From positions 1 to 53,954 of IMG/VR virus record IMGVR_UViG_3300050821_001672: a stretch of 53,954 bases of DNA. One strand, given 5' to 3'. This DNA is from a virus. Positions 288 through 53,954 of this stretch are shown here, in pieces; the stretch's first letter is position 1, and every line of letters starts with the position of its first letter. A program made the translations under genes and the position numbers. Under the pieces are notes generated by a model. The model saw only the letters and a list, made by a program, of their open reading frames with translations. It searched no databases and was not told where the DNA came from.

Positions 288-330
288 TGTGACGTAGTTC
301 ACGACCGCGCGGTCAGTTTTGCCCCATAAT
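288..330 (+). promoter_or_regulatory. Early promoter P1: CRP-like box, palindromic operator, -10
   Basis: TGTGA-CGTAGT-TCACG at 288-303 resembles a CRP box (TGTGA-N6-TCACA). GACCGCGCGGTC at 303-314 is an exact palindrome. CATAAT at 325-330 is a good -10. The predicted start is near 337, placing the CRP-like centre at about -41.5, as in class II CRP-activated promoters, with the palindrome over the -35 region. The same arrangement recurs at 28519-28560, 32624-32667, 34880-34922 and 40440-40481. It drives the UvrD-like helicase gene. Confidence 0.8.
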
Positions 331-27479: not shown

Positions 27480-27991
27480 TAGTCACACCCTTGACCGACT
27501 TCGCTAACGCCCTCGCGATAATAATCGGTTTGTTTGTTGTAGTCCCGATTGTGCACCCAGCCTTTGCCGTCGCACCAGTAACCCCATTCGCGACGCTCGG
27601 GCCAGCGAATCCATATAGTCCACACGGAGCGTGTGTCACATAGCTTGACGCGATGAAGCGTCTCGGCTTTGCGGAAATAGATGCGCCACGGCTTACGGAA
27701 GTGCCAGCGGTCGTAATACCAGCGACGGCTGACAGTGCAATACGGGTCGCCACCGCGAGGCGTGTCATACCATTCGCGCACTAATTCCCAATACCCTTGC
27801 GGGCTGAGAATGATCGAAACGTTATCGGCCTTATGATCGTGGGGAGTGCGGTCGCTATCCGATCGCAGCCATTTATGCAGCGCGAATTGAAAGCCGAACG
27901 CCTTAAGCCAGTGCCAGCGGATCGTTTGCGGATTGTCGCGAGGTCCGATTATAAGGTCAGGCTTGCGCATGAGGTGCGCGAATACTGGCAT
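27479..27991 (-). CDS. Cupin-like protein
   Basis: 170 residues, very rich in Trp, Tyr and Arg. TPHDHKADNVSIILSPQGYW (49-68) with a later LHRVKLC (112-118) forms a cupin-like two-motif pattern; His51, His53 and His113 could bind a metal. WTIWIRWPERREWGYW and a WVHN near the C-terminus follow. Similar phage proteins are uncharacterised. It is part of the accessory island; substrate unknown. Confidence 0.6.
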   Translation of the reverse strand: MPVFAHLMRKPDLIIGPRDNPQTIRWHWLKAFGFQFALHKWLRSDSDRTPHDHKADNVSIILSPQGYWELVREWYDTPRGGDPYCTVSRRWYYDRWHFRKPWRIYFRKAETLHRVKLCDTRSVWTIWIRWPERREWGYWCDGKGWVHNRDYNKQTDYYREGVSEVGQGCD

Positions 27992-28010
27992 AGCCCGACC
28001 GGATGGTCAA

Positions 28011-28278: not shown

Positions 28279-28512
28279 TTATCGCTTGGCGAGTAGCGCG
28301 TCGAGTTTGGAGGTATCGACGCGCACAAGCGATTCGGCGTACCAAAGCCCGCTATTTCGCGTCGTGCGATAAACTAGTGAAACCTCGTCGCCGACCTGTA
28401 TGTCACGCGGAGCATGGTTGAGAAAATGGGTTTCGCCCGTTTCGTCCTTGAACTGATGATAGTTCGCATGATAGGGGCCGACGTATTTAGCGGTGCGTAT
28501 TGTGCTGTTCAT
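28279..28512 (-). CDS. First gene of the accessory island (77 aa)
   Basis: 77 residues starting MNSTIRTAKYVGPYHANYHQ. The middle, VGDEVSLVYRTTRNSGLWYA, looks like a small beta barrel. The frame is open back to 28662, but the ATG at 28512 is preferred because the promoter at 28519-28560 lies directly upstream and would be inside the gene otherwise. The predicted RNA start falls on the ATG itself, so translation may be leaderless. Function unknown. Confidence 0.65.
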   Translation of the reverse strand: MNSTIRTAKYVGPYHANYHQFKDETGETHFLNHAPRDIQVGDEVSLVYRTTRNSGLWYAESLVRVDTSKLDALLAKR

Positions 28513-28518
28513 GGCGCA

Positions 28519-28560
28519 AGTATGCCTTAGACTGACCGCGCGGTCGCGAACTGCGTCACA
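28519..28560 (-). promoter_or_regulatory. Internal promoter P5 in the late operon
   Basis: On the minus strand TGTGA-CGCAGT-TCGCG (28560-28545), GACCGCGCGGTC (28545-28534, exact palindrome) and CATACT (28524-28519) repeat the layout of the early promoter at 288-330. The predicted start is about 28512. It separates the JAB-like structural gene from the accessory island, so the island can be expressed early and apart from the late genes. Confidence 0.78.
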
Positions 28561-32623: not shown

Positions 32624-32667
32624 TGTGACGTAGTTCACCGACCGTTAGGTCAGGCTAGTAATAATAT
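32624..32667 (+). promoter_or_regulatory. Early promoter P2: CRP-like box, operator, -10
   Basis: TGTGA-CGTAGT-TCACC (32624-32639), GACCGTTAGGTC (32640-32651, one mismatch to the palindrome) and TAATAT (32662-32667). The CRP-like centre is about -42 from the predicted start near 32674. It lies in the divergent gap between TerL and the early operon. The leader CACATTAAACGAACGAGAGG resembles that of the next promoter at 34880. Confidence 0.8.
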
Positions 32668-32701
32668 AGCGTCACATTAAACGAACGAGAGGTTTATCGC
32701 A

Positions 32702-34636: not shown

Positions 34637-34884
34637 GGGTCCGCGTCATTCACTACGTGCGCGGCGGCTCGGGTATGGTCGCGAGGTGCGGAACGGCCGC
34701 GCGTACCTTCTCGTGGAATTTGCACGCAACCGAACATCCCGATCGCGTGACATGCCGCGTTTGCCTGTATCACCTCGGCCTGTATATGCCCCTGGTCAAG
34801 CTCAAAGAACATCAGGACGCCGAGTCCGCCGGGCGCGCGAAATATGGCAAACGTGACCCGTATTACGCCGTTACGAATCTGTAA
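34633..34884 (+). CDS. Small early protein with CxxC (83 aa)
   Basis: 83 residues from a GTG (GTGA overlap). IHYVRGGSGMVARCGTAART with VTCRVCLYHL is a Cys pattern frequent in phage small proteins and may bind zinc. It ends just before promoter P3, whose CRP-like box begins at 34880 inside the last codons. Function unknown. Confidence 0.66.
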   Translation: MRVRVIHYVRGGSGMVARCGTAARTFSWNLHATEHPDRVTCRVCLYHLGLYMPLVKLKEHQDAESAGRAKYGKRDPYYAVTNL

Positions 34885-34922
34885 CGTAGTTCACCGACCG
34901 GGTGGTCAGACGTGCCCATACT
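34880..34922 (+). promoter_or_regulatory. Early promoter P3: CRP-like box, operator, -10
   Basis: TGTAA-CGTAGT-TCACC (34880-34895), GACCGGGTGGTC (34896-34907, one mismatch) and CATACT (34917-34922). Predicted start near 34929 puts the CRP-like centre at about -41.5. It drives the genes from 34955 to 37167. Confidence 0.78.
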
Positions 34923-34954
34923 AGCCCCACATTAACGAGACGGAGCGAAAGACG

Positions 34955-39353: not shown

Positions 39354-39369
39354 TGTGAACCGCGTCACA
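39354..39369. promoter_or_regulatory. Perfect CRP-like box
   Basis: TGTGAACCGCGTCACA fits TGTGA-N6-TCACA at all ten conserved positions. TAAATT at 39388-39393 could be a -10 (centre about -38 to -39). It is about 100 bases before the operator at 39461. Confidence 0.6.
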
Positions 39370-40439: not shown

Positions 40440-40481
40440 TGTGATCTAGTTCTAGATTGACCGGGCGGTCGGGGGTAGTAT
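40440..40481 (+). promoter_or_regulatory. Early promoter P4: CRP-like box, operator, -10
   Basis: TGTGA-TCTAGT-TCTAG (40440-40455, second half degenerate), GACCGGGCGGTC (40459-40470, exact) and TAGTAT (40476-40481). The predicted start (about 40488) is 2 bases before the ATG at 40490. The operator is shifted 3 bases compared with the other promoters, but the CRP-like centre keeps its distance to the -10. Confidence 0.7.
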
Positions 40482-40489
40482 TTCACAAC

Positions 40490-44449: not shown

Positions 44450-44737
44450 CTAGGCTGCGATCAATTTGACGTGTCGACGTGCTTTTTGCCGCAGCGAGCG
44501 TGGAGCGTTAATCGCGTCCTTGTGCCCCTCAGCTAAACCTTGAGCGACGATAATCGAGAGTTCGAGTTCGATACCTCGGCGGATGATCGCATCGTGTAGG
44601 CCCGGAATTGATTTGAAATGATACGACACCGTGGCGAGCGCACATTTCGCTTTAGTTGCGGCCATTCGGCGCGTAACGTTGCGAAAGCCAACGCGAGTCG
44701 CCAGTTCGACGGCACCGTCGAGTATTTCTTGCTTCAT
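44450..44737 (-). CDS. Minimal TetR-type DNA-binding protein
   Basis: 95 residues. ILDGAVELATRVGFRNVTRR (5-24) and MAATKAKCALATVSYHFKSI (25-44) match the N-terminal helix-turn-helix domain of TetR regulators, with recognition helix about 33-40 and the YHF that ends it. Full TetR proteins are about 190 residues or more; here the ligand-binding domain is missing and only a basic tail follows (RSLRQKARRHVKL). It overlaps the VRR-NUC gene (ATGA). The palindrome GACCG-N2-CGGTC found at phage promoters has the length and symmetry expected of a TetR operator, and its operon promoter carries one. Binding is inferred. Confidence 0.8.
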   Translation of the reverse strand: MKQEILDGAVELATRVGFRNVTRRMAATKAKCALATVSYHFKSIPGLHDAIIRRGIELELSIIVAQGLAEGHKDAINAPRSLRQKARRHVKLIAA

Positions 44738-45156
44738 ACGGATTTACCTCTAGTGAGCGGGTCATCGTATATTGACTCCCCGGTCGAATCAATAACCCCA
44801 TTCGTAAAATAGGCTTTGCCGCCCATTTCGTTCACCTTGTTTATAAATTTGGCTTGTGCTATCTCGCGGGCGTTACCGGTATATTTCCAGTCTTCGGGCT
44901 TGCACTCGACGGCGTAAAATCGGCCGATCTTTTGGCCGATCATATCCACCGTAATCGTTATAGTTTCTATGCCTATAAGGTCCGAGGATTTCATGTGCTC
45001 ATTGAATTTTTTGGACACATTTCCGAGGCCGAATCGCACTTGACGACCCGTGTCGTCCTCGAACGCGCCCGAGTTGTTGCGCAATAACCAGCGATTACCT
45101 GATCGCGCGGCGGCGAGAGCCGTCAAGGCTTGAACGCGTTTCTCGCTGTCGCTCAC
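44734..45156 (-). CDS. VRR-NUC nuclease
   Basis: 140 residues. RNNSGAFEDD, then KSSDLIGIETITITVDMIGQ, FYAVECKPEDW and AQAKFINKVNEMGGKAYFTN give the D...E-x-K pattern of the VRR-NUC branch of PD-(D/E)XK nucleases. Phage members act on branched DNA during replication or recombination. It lies between the SF2 helicase and primase, a usual grouping. Confidence 0.87.
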   Translation of the reverse strand: MSDSEKRVQALTALAAARSGNRWLLRNNSGAFEDDTGRQVRFGLGNVSKKFNEHMKSSDLIGIETITITVDMIGQKIGRFYAVECKPEDWKYTGNAREIAQAKFINKVNEMGGKAYFTNGVIDSTGESIYDDPLTRGKSV

Positions 45157-47327: not shown

Positions 47328-47650
47328 GCGAATAGGTCCCTTATGGCTTTACCTTCCCGGCGGGTTTTGTAGGCTTCGATCGAATGGAGCGGCGCATCGT
47401 AAATCAAATGGCATCGTTGGCACAAGGCTGCGAGGTTCGATTGATCGCAATTCGTCCGATCGTGGTCGAGGTGTGCGGCCTGTATAAACACGATTGACCC
47501 GGTAATCGGGTGAAACCATCTATGGCGGGCGCCGCAATGCTGGCATGTGTTATTAGCGCGCTCGCGGCATTCCCGGGAAATGCGCCGCCAACCTTTCGGA
47601 TATTGGGCCTTTTTGATTTTCCATCGAGCCCAGCGCGCGGTTATTGACAT
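47324..47650 (-). CDS. HNH endonuclease
   Basis: 108 residues. CQHCG (36-40), AAHLDHDRTN (58-67), SNLAALCQRCHLIYD (71-85): a full HNH motif with zinc-binding Cys pairs, His63 as general base. It is the first gene of the minus-strand operon. It could be a free-standing homing nuclease or part of packaging or host DNA cleavage. The predicted RNA start lies only 3 bases before the ATG. Confidence 0.87.
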   Translation of the reverse strand: MSITARWARWKIKKAQYPKGWRRISRECRERANNTCQHCGARHRWFHPITGSIVFIQAAHLDHDRTNCDQSNLAALCQRCHLIYDAPLHSIEAYKTRREGKAIRDLFA

Positions 47651-47700
47651 CGTGTTCGCATCGTACTAGCCTACTGACCGCACAGTCAATCCACGATTCG
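47644..47700. promoter_or_regulatory. Divergent promoter region with shared operator
   Basis: Minus strand: TTGACT (47689-47684), 18-base spacer, TACGAT (47665-47660), start about 47653, for the operon with the TetR-like gene. Plus strand: TTGACA (47644-47649), 17-base spacer, TAGCCT (47667-47672), for the gene at 47710. GACCGCACAGTC (47676-47687, one mismatch to the palindrome) overlaps the minus -35 and the plus start. One protein bound here could control both directions. Confidence 0.68.
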
Positions 47701-51741: not shown

Positions 51742-53954
51742 ATGCTCGCCGGTACGAAAGTTCGCGCATTCCACGGTGTCAGCACCGTCTTACCCGACAT
51801 TGATTTCGAGACAAGCTCGGACGCCGGGTACGTGTACGATTTTGCCGAGCGCAAATGGGGCTCGCTCCCCGGATACGACGCACAGAATCGCGGCCTGCCC
51901 GCCGTGGGAACGCGTATCTATGTAGAACACTGGTCGTTTCGACCGCTCATGATTTCATGGAACCTCAAGGACGGCGGACCGGCCGGTCAATGGGAACCCG
52001 GCGAGAATCCCGCCACACTCGAACCGCTGTTCGCCTATATCCGCGCTGGCGGGCTCATGGAGGCACAAAACTCCATGTTCGAGTTCACCGTTTGGAATTG
52101 CTATTGCGTGCCGGTCCTTGGTTGGCCGGAAATTAAAATCGAGCAAATGCGTTGCTCGGCCTCGAAACTGCGCGCCGCCGGGTTTCCCGGATCGCTCGGC
52201 CCAGCGGGCGAAGTCCTCGACATAGAACACAAAAAGGACAAAGAGGGCGAGCGGCTAATGAAAATATTTTCAATGCCGCACAATCCAACAAAAAAGGACC
52301 CGACCACACATACGCTACCGTGGCAAGCCCCGTTTGAATGGCAAGCCTACAAGGCGTACAACCGAACCGATATCGTCGCCGAGTCCGAGGTTTCGATCGC
52401 GTGCCCCGATCTCTCGTCGTTTGAGCTTGAGGTGTGGTTAGAGGATCAACGCATCAATTTTCGCGGGATGCAAGTCGACTCTTTCAACGTCGACAATTGT
52501 ATCGCGGTAGTCGAGCAAGCATACGAGCGTTACGGCGCCGAATGCCGTGCGCTCACGGGCCGGATTGAGCCAACAGAATTACAGCAATTGCTCGCATGGT
52601 TGCACAGTCAAGGGGTGCACCTCGACAACATGCAAGCGAAAACGATCGAGGCGGCCGTCGAACGTTTGACGCCGCTCGGATACTCGCCGGGCTTGCGCGT
52701 CCTGCAATTGCGCCAAATGCTCGGGAGCGCGAGCGTTAAAAAATTGTTCTCGCTTCGCGCCCGCACGTGCCGCTCGGGCCGCGTTTATGACATGTATCTA
52801 TACATGGCGACACATCATGGCCGATGGGGCGGTTATGGGCCTCAGCCGCAAAATCTCTATAAAGGCGACTGGCACACGCCCGAGGAAGTCGACGCCGCGT
52901 TAAAGATACTCGCTTCGCGCGATCTTGCCACGGTTGAGGCCGCATATCCGGGCCTATCTGCGCTCGACGTGGTTAATAACGTCTTGCGGTCACTGTTCAT
53001 TGCGGCGCCCGGCCACAAGCTCGTATCGTCGGACTATTCCGCCATCGAAGCCGTGTGTCTTGCCGCGCTCGCGGGCGAGCAATGGGTACTCGACGTGCTG
53101 GCAACCCACGGTATGATTTACGAGGCGACAATTTCCCGCATGGCGGGGATTCCGTTCGAGGACTTCGTAAAACACCGCGTCGACACGGGCGGCGTTGCGA
53201 CCTACTCGCCCGAGGGAAAGTTACTATCGATCAAAGGCGGCAAGCACCACCCGTTACGCCAGCAAGGCAAGCTCGCGGACCTCTCGGGCGGCTACGCCTC
53301 ATGGATAGGCGGATGGAAAAAGTTCGGCGCCGACAAATACTACAAGTCCGATTACGAAATGAAACAGGCGATTTTAAGCTATCGCCGCGCGCGCCCAGCT
53401 ACAGAGGAATTTTGGGGCGGCCAGACGCGAGGCAAATTCACCGACTCGTGCCGACAGGAATTATATGGACTTGAGGGCGCCGCAATTTCCGCCGTTCTCA
53501 ATCCCGGCATATGCTACCGCGTCGGGCTAATCGGCTTCCAAATGAGTGCGGCCGATGACGTGCTTTACATGCAATTACCGTCCGGCCGACTGATTTCGTA
53601 CCACACGCCGCGTTTGACGCCCGCAACCCGCGACTACGCCGAACCGTGGGAACTCGCTCTATCGTACTGGGGCTGGAATACGAACCCGGACAAGGGACCG
53701 CCCGCGTGGATCCAAATGGACCTCTATGGCGGGGTTTTAACTCAGAACGCTTGCGGCGGCACGGCGCGCGACATTATGGCCCATGGGATGCTCAACGTTG
53801 CCCGCAAGGGGTATCCTATCGTCATGCACACCCACGATGAAGCGGTCGCCGAGGTTCCCGAGGGATTCGGGTCGGTGATCGAGTTCGAGACGGAATTAAA
53901 CGACTTGCCGGGCTACGCGAAAGCATGGCCGATATTTGCTAAAGGCGGATGGGA
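51742..53954 (+). CDS. DNA polymerase I family, main part (continues at 1-125)
   Basis: About 746 residues in total across the circular join. Start ATG at 51742 with GAGG 6-9 bases upstream. 3'-5' exonuclease: DIDFET (19-24), AQNSMFE and YKAYNRTDIVAE. Polymerase: motif A VSSDYSAIEAVCLAALAG, motif B in RQQGKLADLSGGYASWIGGW (Lys and Gly-Tyr conserved), motif C MHTHDEAV. It replicates the phage genome with the SF2 helicase, primase, DUF2815 and nuclease products. An exact operator palindrome (51977-51988) lies within the gene, perhaps by chance. Confidence 0.94.
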   Translation, partial: MLAGTKVRAFHGVSTVLPDIDFETSSDAGYVYDFAERKWGSLPGYDAQNRGLPAVGTRIYVEHWSFRPLMISWNLKDGGPAGQWEPGENPATLEPLFAYIRAGGLMEAQNSMFEFTVWNCYCVPVLGWPEIKIEQMRCSASKLRAAGFPGSLGPAGEVLDIEHKKDKEGERLMKIFSMPHNPTKKDPTTHTLPWQAPFEWQAYKAYNRTDIVAESEVSIACPDLSSFELEVWLEDQRINFRGMQVDSFNVDNCIAVVEQAYERYGAECRALTGRIEPTELQQLLAWLHSQGVHLDNMQAKTIEAAVERLTPLGYSPGLRVLQLRQMLGSASVKKLFSLRARTCRSGRVYDMYLYMATHHGRWGGYGPQPQNLYKGDWHTPEEVDAALKILASRDLATVEAAYPGLSALDVVNNVLRSLFIAAPGHKLVSSDYSAIEAVCLAALAGEQWVLDVLATHGMIYEATISRMAGIPFEDFVKHRVDTGGVATYSPEGKLLSIKGGKHHPLRQQGKLADLSGGYASWIGGWKKFGADKYYKSDYEMKQAILSYRRARPATEEFWGGQTRGKFTDSCRQELYGLEGAAISAVLNPGICYRVGLIGFQMSAADDVLYMQLPSGRLISYHTPRLTPATRDYAEPWELALSYWGWNTNPDKGPPAWIQMDLYGGVLTQNACGGTARDIMAHGMLNVARKGYPIVMHTHDEAVAEVPEGFGSVIEFETELNDLPGYAKAWPIFAKGGW

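Follow-up and report, generated by a model that had tools for sequence, protein, structure and literature searches.

Our analysis points to a set of phage promoters that are probably activated by a host protein of the CRP family and repressed by a TetR-type protein of the phage itself. The window, as we call the sequence in which they were found, comprises an entire IMG/VR virus record (53,954 bases). An exact repeat of 97 bases at its ends (positions 1-97 and 53858-53954) could be genuinely terminal or could stem from overlap in the assembly. In the arrangement that we propose, a host CRP-family protein would bind TGTGA-N6-TCAC near -41.5, where it would replace a good -35 hexamer, and the box-bound protein would recruit sigma-70 RNA polymerase by class II activation. 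A TetR-type protein would bind a GAC-N6-GTC palindrome between the box and the -10 and close the promoter once there was sufficient repressor; it is encoded in the replication block, and closure of the box promoters would come later. A preliminary description of this DNA had proposed CRP/Vfr-type activation combined with repression. The class II box, the constrained distance from box to -10, the floating palindrome, and the recurrence in kin partly bear this out, the comparative data adding a great deal to what the window alone could tell; the identity of the protein and activation as such are what we infer from them.

Five composite promoters in the window

All five composites of the preliminary description, four on the plus strand and one on the minus strand, were found where it had placed them (Table 1). 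At each, a 15-base box like TGTGACGTAGTTCAC is followed by the palindrome GACCG-N3-GGTC and then by a -10. From promoter 1 to promoter 5, the start of the box precedes the start of the -10 by 37, 38, 37, 36, and 36 bases. An A stands 7 bases after the -10 in all five and serves as the predicted start base; counted from the -10, the predicted centre of the box falls between -40.5 and -42.5, in agreement with the class II position claimed for it. The distance from box to palindrome is 15, 16, 16, 19, and 15 bases, and at promoter 4, for which a shift of 3 bases had been stated, the palindrome is displaced by 3-4 bases (19 versus 15-16) while the box keeps its place.

The box can be recognized as TGTGA-N6-TCAC-like at all five promoters, except that the first half-site at 34880 is TGTAA and the second half-sites at 40440 and 28560 are TCTA and TCGC, not TCAC. 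Matches to TGTGA/TCAC are complete (9/9) at 288 and 32624, with one mismatch at 34880 and 28560 and two at 40440. The last A of the longer form, TGTGA-N6-TCACA, is missing in all five. The -35 is weak or absent: in the four window promoters that passed our filters, the hexamer 22-25 bases before the -10 has three mismatches to TTGACA. Four of the five have lost the TT of the -35; the TTGACC at 40440 stands only 13 bases from the -10. The predicted start of promoter 5 is the A of an ATG and that of promoter 4 lies two bases before one, so that these two promoters would give messages with no leader or almost none. To judge by gene content and position, the genes of the box promoters would be early.

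Elsewhere in the window, a perfect TGTGA-N6-TCAC is read on both strands at 39354-39369, with no exact operator alongside. The leader of the helicase gene (331-358) holds a hairpin, CGCCTCAC...GTGAGGCG, with TATAAT in its loop; read by eye, a second promoter, TTGCCC-N16-TATAAT, is possible there.

Table 1. Positions of promoter elements, genes, and the proposed repressor in the window
Feature	Position	Strand	Remark
Promoter 1 CRP-like box TGTGACGTAGTTCAC	288..302	+	centre -41.5
Promoter 1 operator GACCGCGCGGTC	303..314	+	covers -35 position
Promoter 1 -10 CATAAT	325..330	+	predicted start A at 337
Promoter 1 gene, UvrD-type helicase, 482 aa	362..1810	+	Pfam PF00580, 8.5e-23
Promoter 2 CRP-like box	32624..32638	+	centre -42.5; -40.5 with alternative -10
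Promoter 2 operator GACCGTTAGGTC	32640..32651	+	
Promoter 2 -10, two readings: TAATAT or AATAAT (at 32660)	32662..32667	+	predicted start A at 32674
Promoter 2 ORF, 81 aa	32702-32947	+	
Promoter 3 CRP-like box	34880..34894	+	centre -41.5; first half-site altered (TGTAA)
Promoter 3 operator GACCGGGTGGTC	34896..34907	+	
Promoter 3 -10 CATACT	34917..34922	+	predicted start A at 34929
Promoter 3 ORF, 70 aa	34955-35167	+	
Promoter 4 CRP-like box TGTGATCTAGTTCTA	40440..40454	+	centre -40.5; second half weak
Promoter 4 operator GACCGGGCGGTC	40459..40470	+	3-4 bases farther from box than in other promoters
Promoter 4 -10 TAGTAT	40476..40481	+	predicted start A at 40488
Promoter 4 ORF, 54 aa	ATG at +3 (40490)	+	
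Promoter 5 CRP-like box TGTGACGCAGTTCGC	28546..28560	-	centre -40.5; amid structural genes
Promoter 5 operator GACCGCGCGGTC	28534..28545	-	
Promoter 5 -10 CATACT	28519..28524	-	predicted start A at 28512
Promoter 5 ORF, 77 aa	28512-28279	-	predicted start = A of ATG, leaderless
P0001, 95-aa TetR-type HTH protein	44450..44737	-	proposed palindrome repressor; PF00440, 24.5 bits
Half-preserved operator TCGACCGGGGAGTCAA before tetR	44772..44787	-	outside strict operator rule
Box-less operator promoter TTGACC-N17-CAGTAT	27982..28010	-	spacing by eye
Box-less operator promoter TTGACT-N18-TACGAT	47660..47689	-	spacing by eye; 3-base leader, ATG at 47650

Chance was assessed with 200 order-3 Markov genomes, allowing the box at most 2/9 mismatches. 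Exact palindromes with a box 15-19 bases upstream were observed six times in the window, whereas the Markov genomes averaged 0.005 and never had more than one; the six readings are the five promoters plus one opposite-strand reading at 40470. With or without a box, exact palindromes number 11 in the window (0.5 expected), and a box within the same mismatch limit stands at 0.4% of random positions. Only some of the 11 have the look of a promoter: six lack a box, and a fitting -10 is missing from several of the six as well. A looser composite count, with up to four mismatches in the box and two in the operator, had a Markov mean of 95 and was uninformative. Given so small an expectation for the strict composite, and the recurrence of the box in separately assembled relatives, it is hardly credible that the arrangement arose by chance or as an artefact of assembly.

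Relatives found by motif alone

A scan of viral_contigs for TGTGA-N6-TCAC-N(0-5)-GAC-N6-GTC returned at least 119 stretches, many of which are presumably chance. Five were picked by eye for operator symmetry and -10 (L193, L186, L161, L127, and L214). Tested beside them were L204, which has an equally good -10 and an asymmetric palindrome, and four members of a second motif group. The four long records among the picks (G003, G005, G006, and G007) share many structural and replication genes with the window, with identities of 48-50% for TerL (three of the four records), 44-54% for the portal, 49-56% for the DEAD helicase, and 61-69% for tail protein g9179. Each has a TetR-type ORF, scoring 37.9 bits in G006, 32.3 in G003, 18.3 in G005, and 18.0 in G007, the last two below the cut-off. 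Such an ORF was absent from the 10-kb fragment G004 and from the L204 record, and G008, of the second motif group, gave a partial TetR match of 16.1 bits. None of 20 control records of the same scan reached the TetR_N cut-off (best, 14.0 bits).

Operators with a box at 15-19 bases make up 6/28 in the window, 3/22 in G003, 1/30 in G005, 1/4 in G006, and 0/24 in G007, where the box precedes a less symmetric operator. The corresponding count for 15 named phages is 1/176, the one being in Scuro. In G003 the box is followed by a complete -35, which leaves no obvious need for activation there.

Other searches recovered little. No named phage was matched by megablast with 20 kb of G003, megablast of window positions 1-25000 found nothing, and the terminase and the TetR protein, as single queries, found no kin in viral_contigs. 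The sole further exact motif in viral_contigs (L057) lies inside a thyX-like ORF and was taken as chance. At the nucleotide level, the helicase gene at 362-1810 is about 67% identical to PaMx25 and others (Queuovirinae, Nipunavirus). Of 53 helicase loci, L001-L004 were scanned for the motif together with the PaMx25 piece L054, and all five lacked it; G001, the nearest helicase kin, had no match to the other 21 window proteins tested. Read from such comparisons, this helicase is probably a mosaic gene: it is Queuovirinae-like, and many other genes match the four motif-found records.

The second motif group (L124, L125, L133, L150 with two copies, L155, L181, L196, L216, and L242) shows TGTGA-N6-TCACA adjoining an invariant GACTTGAGCGTCTC, followed by TTACTGGCTAGTAA-like and TATAAT-like boxes. 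TetR_N was over the cut-off in none of the four records tested. The element may be a further CRP-linked promoter or something akin to an origin.

The box in loci collected by gene

The counts that are free of record selection come from loci collected without the motif. From a DEAD helicase alignment, the best 80 of 164 relatives were taken as loci, 76 of them outside the four motif-found records; a TetR-type ORF is present in 68 of the 80. Since the loci reach at most 10 kb either side of the helicase, absence of the box from a locus is weak evidence. Among 202 operator/-10 pairs in the 76 loci, a box lies at 36-38 bases in 15, compared with eight for the other 41 distances together, and the operator's own place in those 15 pairs varies from 15 to 24 bases. 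In named phages, 1 of 102 operator/-10 pairs has a box at 36-38.

When one -10 was kept per operator and duplicates were removed, 158 distinct sites remained in the 76 loci. TGTGA is the commonest 5-mer at 36-38 (16 sites), and any 5-mer in 18 control windows reaches at most 7. By distance to the -10, it occurs four times at 36, seven at 37, five at 38, and once at 39, and at most once elsewhere from 20 to 95; in named phages, it stands at 36-39 in none of 85 sites. TGTGA is in place in 10 of the 23 loci with a helicase identity to the window of 49% or more and in none of the 53 below this line, which was set after the result was known. In the 66 loci that were not fetched whole, it is not enriched (2/114 sites). 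These counts indicate that the operator is widespread and the box confined to close relatives of the window.

Whole records and unselected flanks

Fifteen records were compared whole: the window, the four motif-found records, and ten gene-found records (G033-G042), which were chosen from the top loci after boxes near the helicase had been seen in most of them. A box at 36-38 precedes 29 of 86 intergenic operator/-10 promoters, from which our filters had removed promoter 5 of the window, and is present in 4 of 430 control windows. It occurs at this distance in 12 of the 15 records, with one to six copies per record in several kin. Of the 70 sites in the ten gene-found records, 23 show TGTGA at 36-38, and the best 5-mer of the control windows reaches 4. 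The flanks of 25 TGTGA sites (36-39) of these records, where the rest of the box was unselected, rebuild AAAnTGTGACGCAGTTCnC. A TCAC-like second half with at most one mismatch follows at N6 in 16 of the 25, shifts of +7 to +17 giving 0-6 otherwise; the second half is weak in kin, with an exact TCAC in 3 of the 25. A start codon lies no more than 6 bases into the predicted RNA in 8 of the 29 box promoters. The start codons at 28512 and 40490 are examples from the window itself, and messages with little or no leader may be frequent in its clade.

Box and -35 tend toward mutual exclusion in these 86 promoters. Both are present in 5, only a -35 in 29, only a box in 24, and neither in 28 (Fisher p 0.0027, 15 records). 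The last class and the imperfect half-sites are points against the proposed activation. The exclusion also bears on the idea that a CRP-like protein acts here mainly as a brake or repressor, in which case high cAMP would delay expression rather than favour it. There is a precedent in phage T1, where cAMP-CRP represses the pir, dam, and recE promoters according to PMC6737242. Yet the box is fixed at the class II distance and -35 hexamers are scarcer where it occurs, so that we regard a brake as quite improbable and continue with activation as the preferred reading.

Which protein reads the box

The consensus for Vfr is ANWWTGNGAWNY:AGWTCACAT in PMC8787478, and that for CRP is AAATGTGAN6TCACATTT in PMC8160232. 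Of the 18 defined positions of the Vfr consensus, the window boxes match 13 or 14; between 0.003 and 0.023% of positions in the window score as high. The kin sequence AAAnTGTGACGCAGTTCnC is near the Vfr consensus and fits its core (Y, A, G, W, TC-C), except that the base following TGTGA is C (TGTGACG) and not W. HTH_Crp_2 and cNMP_binding domains were found in none of the 15 phage records, while the same searches for CRP-type HTH and cyclic-nucleotide domains were positive in 14/14 and 11/14 control genomes. With no recognizable CRP-family gene in the 15 records, a CRP-family reader would be the host's. As to that host, the top-ranked named relatives of the portal are Pseudomonas syringae phages (37%), and the sole genome contig with a helicase relative (partial) comes from a Rhodobacteraceae MAG.

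The box could instead be read by another activator, either an unrecognized phage protein or a host regulator of CRP-like specificity, such as another CRP/FNR-type protein, that is no sensor of cAMP. In that case the geometry of class II and the repression by TetR would stand and the nutritional link would fail. The weak second half-site in kin and a conserved core CG unlike the CRP and Vfr consensus speak for such a protein, and many window proteins have no family match, which leaves room for an unrecognized phage activator. However, the N6 spacing, the TGTGA half-site, the A-rich flank, and the YAG core agree with the Vfr consensus, and the 15 phage records have no CRP-family domain. On balance, we consider another activator unlikely, if worth keeping in mind, and a host CRP-family protein the better candidate.

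The palindrome and a phage-encoded TetR-type protein

Going beyond the preliminary description, we propose a phage-encoded TetR-type protein as the candidate repressor. The TetR_N match (PF00440) in P0001 is slightly above the cut-off of 24. A profile of P0001 with 41 relatives retrieved TetR chains from the PDB (best E, 3.9e-10), and an AlphaFold2 model has seven helices and a mean pLDDT of 95.5. TetR-type proteins also lead the Foldseek list, but at E values of 0.012 or worse. A C-terminal ligand-binding/dimerization domain is lacking, P0001 having 95 aa where the TetR chains among its PDB hits mostly have about 180-220 aa.

A search at E <= 1 gave homologues in 34 records, weak toward the end of the list, from named phages that infect Vibrio, Klebsiella, Edwardsiella, Pantoea, and others, and those of CP-T1 and Geezett, like the window's, sit in the replication region. 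In 6 of 14 named phage genomes with a homologue (CP-T1, Geezett, MSW-3, AAM22, SCNJ1-Y, and KsaM-C1), TTGAC-N6-GTCAA or TGACG-N4-CGTCA is the commonest gapped palindrome, and GACCG-N3-GGTC has the same GAC-N6-GTC frame. Read by eye, the palindrome of CP-T1 and Geezett lies at promoters, with TTGAC doubling as the -35. It is weak, different, or absent in the other eight (CKB-S1, Osa_PD0307, SFCi1, PY6, AeroV_348, VP16C, 367.14, and MR14). An excess of GACG-N4-CGTC in Vibrio 367.14 and SppYZU01 was set aside; by eye it resembles coding sequence. The box is absent at operators of the 14 named phages with a TetR homologue (0/166).

On the strength of this enrichment, we take the palindrome to be, most likely, the operator for the phage-encoded 95-aa protein. 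It might instead belong to a different regulator, with the TetR-type protein in some other role: the window's own tetR has a half-preserved operator only, a strict operator lies within 150 bases of 17 of the 69 tetR genes in the locus set, and there are the eight named phages just listed. Against this, GAC-N6-GTC is strongly enriched in six distant phages with TetR homologues, although these phages share replication genes too, so that the link between TetR and operator is not unique; and a TetR-type ORF is present in all four long motif-found records. We judge a different regulator to be improbable. If the 95-aa protein is indeed the repressor, tetR autoregulation through the half-preserved operator, 35-50 bases before the gene, is possible. 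A minus-strand ORF at 27482-27991 matches a PHROG named cysteine dioxygenase (3e-28).

Implications and comparison with known systems

In the usual picture, early phage promoters are strong and do not depend on regulators of the host. By analogy with CRP, we infer that cAMP and carbon status may set the expression of the box-promoter genes. We lean slightly toward the broader view that this clade of uncultured phages swapped the -35 of several promoters for a host CRP class II site plus a phage TetR-type off switch, forming an AND-NOT gate controlled by cAMP and carbon. If so, one host protein and one phage protein would together gate the opening of expression, and if a host nutrient activator were used clade-wide, the outcome of infection would depend on carbon supply. 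Each box promoter also gains a defined viral repressor candidate. Such phages can also be sought in metagenomes by a rule on sequence: a box 36-38 bases from a -10, with a floating operator. Starting from a single window, this rule brought up four relatives that had not been suspected.

A class II CRP-dependent promoter combines a TGTGA-N6-TCAC box near -41.5 with a -10 and a poor -35. The promoters described here are like those of E. coli CRP and P. aeruginosa Vfr in each of these respects. Unlike bacterial class II promoters, they are viral and repeated in kin, they have an operator between box and -10, and the core of their box is TGTGACG. In the accessible text of the open-licence literature searched, we found no description of class II CRP boxes in phage promoters. 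The nearest viral case is the Pir circuit of phage T1, in which host cAMP-CRP acts directly on phage promoters and ties phage development to sugar supply. There, however, CRP represses, the context is prophage induction, and the accessible text of PMC6737242 describes neither a TetR operator nor a box at a set position common to several promoters. At murQP of Vibrio cholerae, CRP and HapR, a member of the TetR family, meet on one promoter, where their sites overlap with a 1-bp offset and the two bind together, as reported in PMC10328515; in the window, the operator follows the box, and the TetR-type protein comes from the virus and has no ligand domain. Finally, the Jedunavirus Geezett, CP-T1, and MSW-3 have a homologous short TetR-type protein, and CP-T1 and Geezett share a TTGAC-N6-GTCAA operator on the -35. 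In these phages, unlike the window, the TTGAC -35 is retained and there is no CRP-like box.
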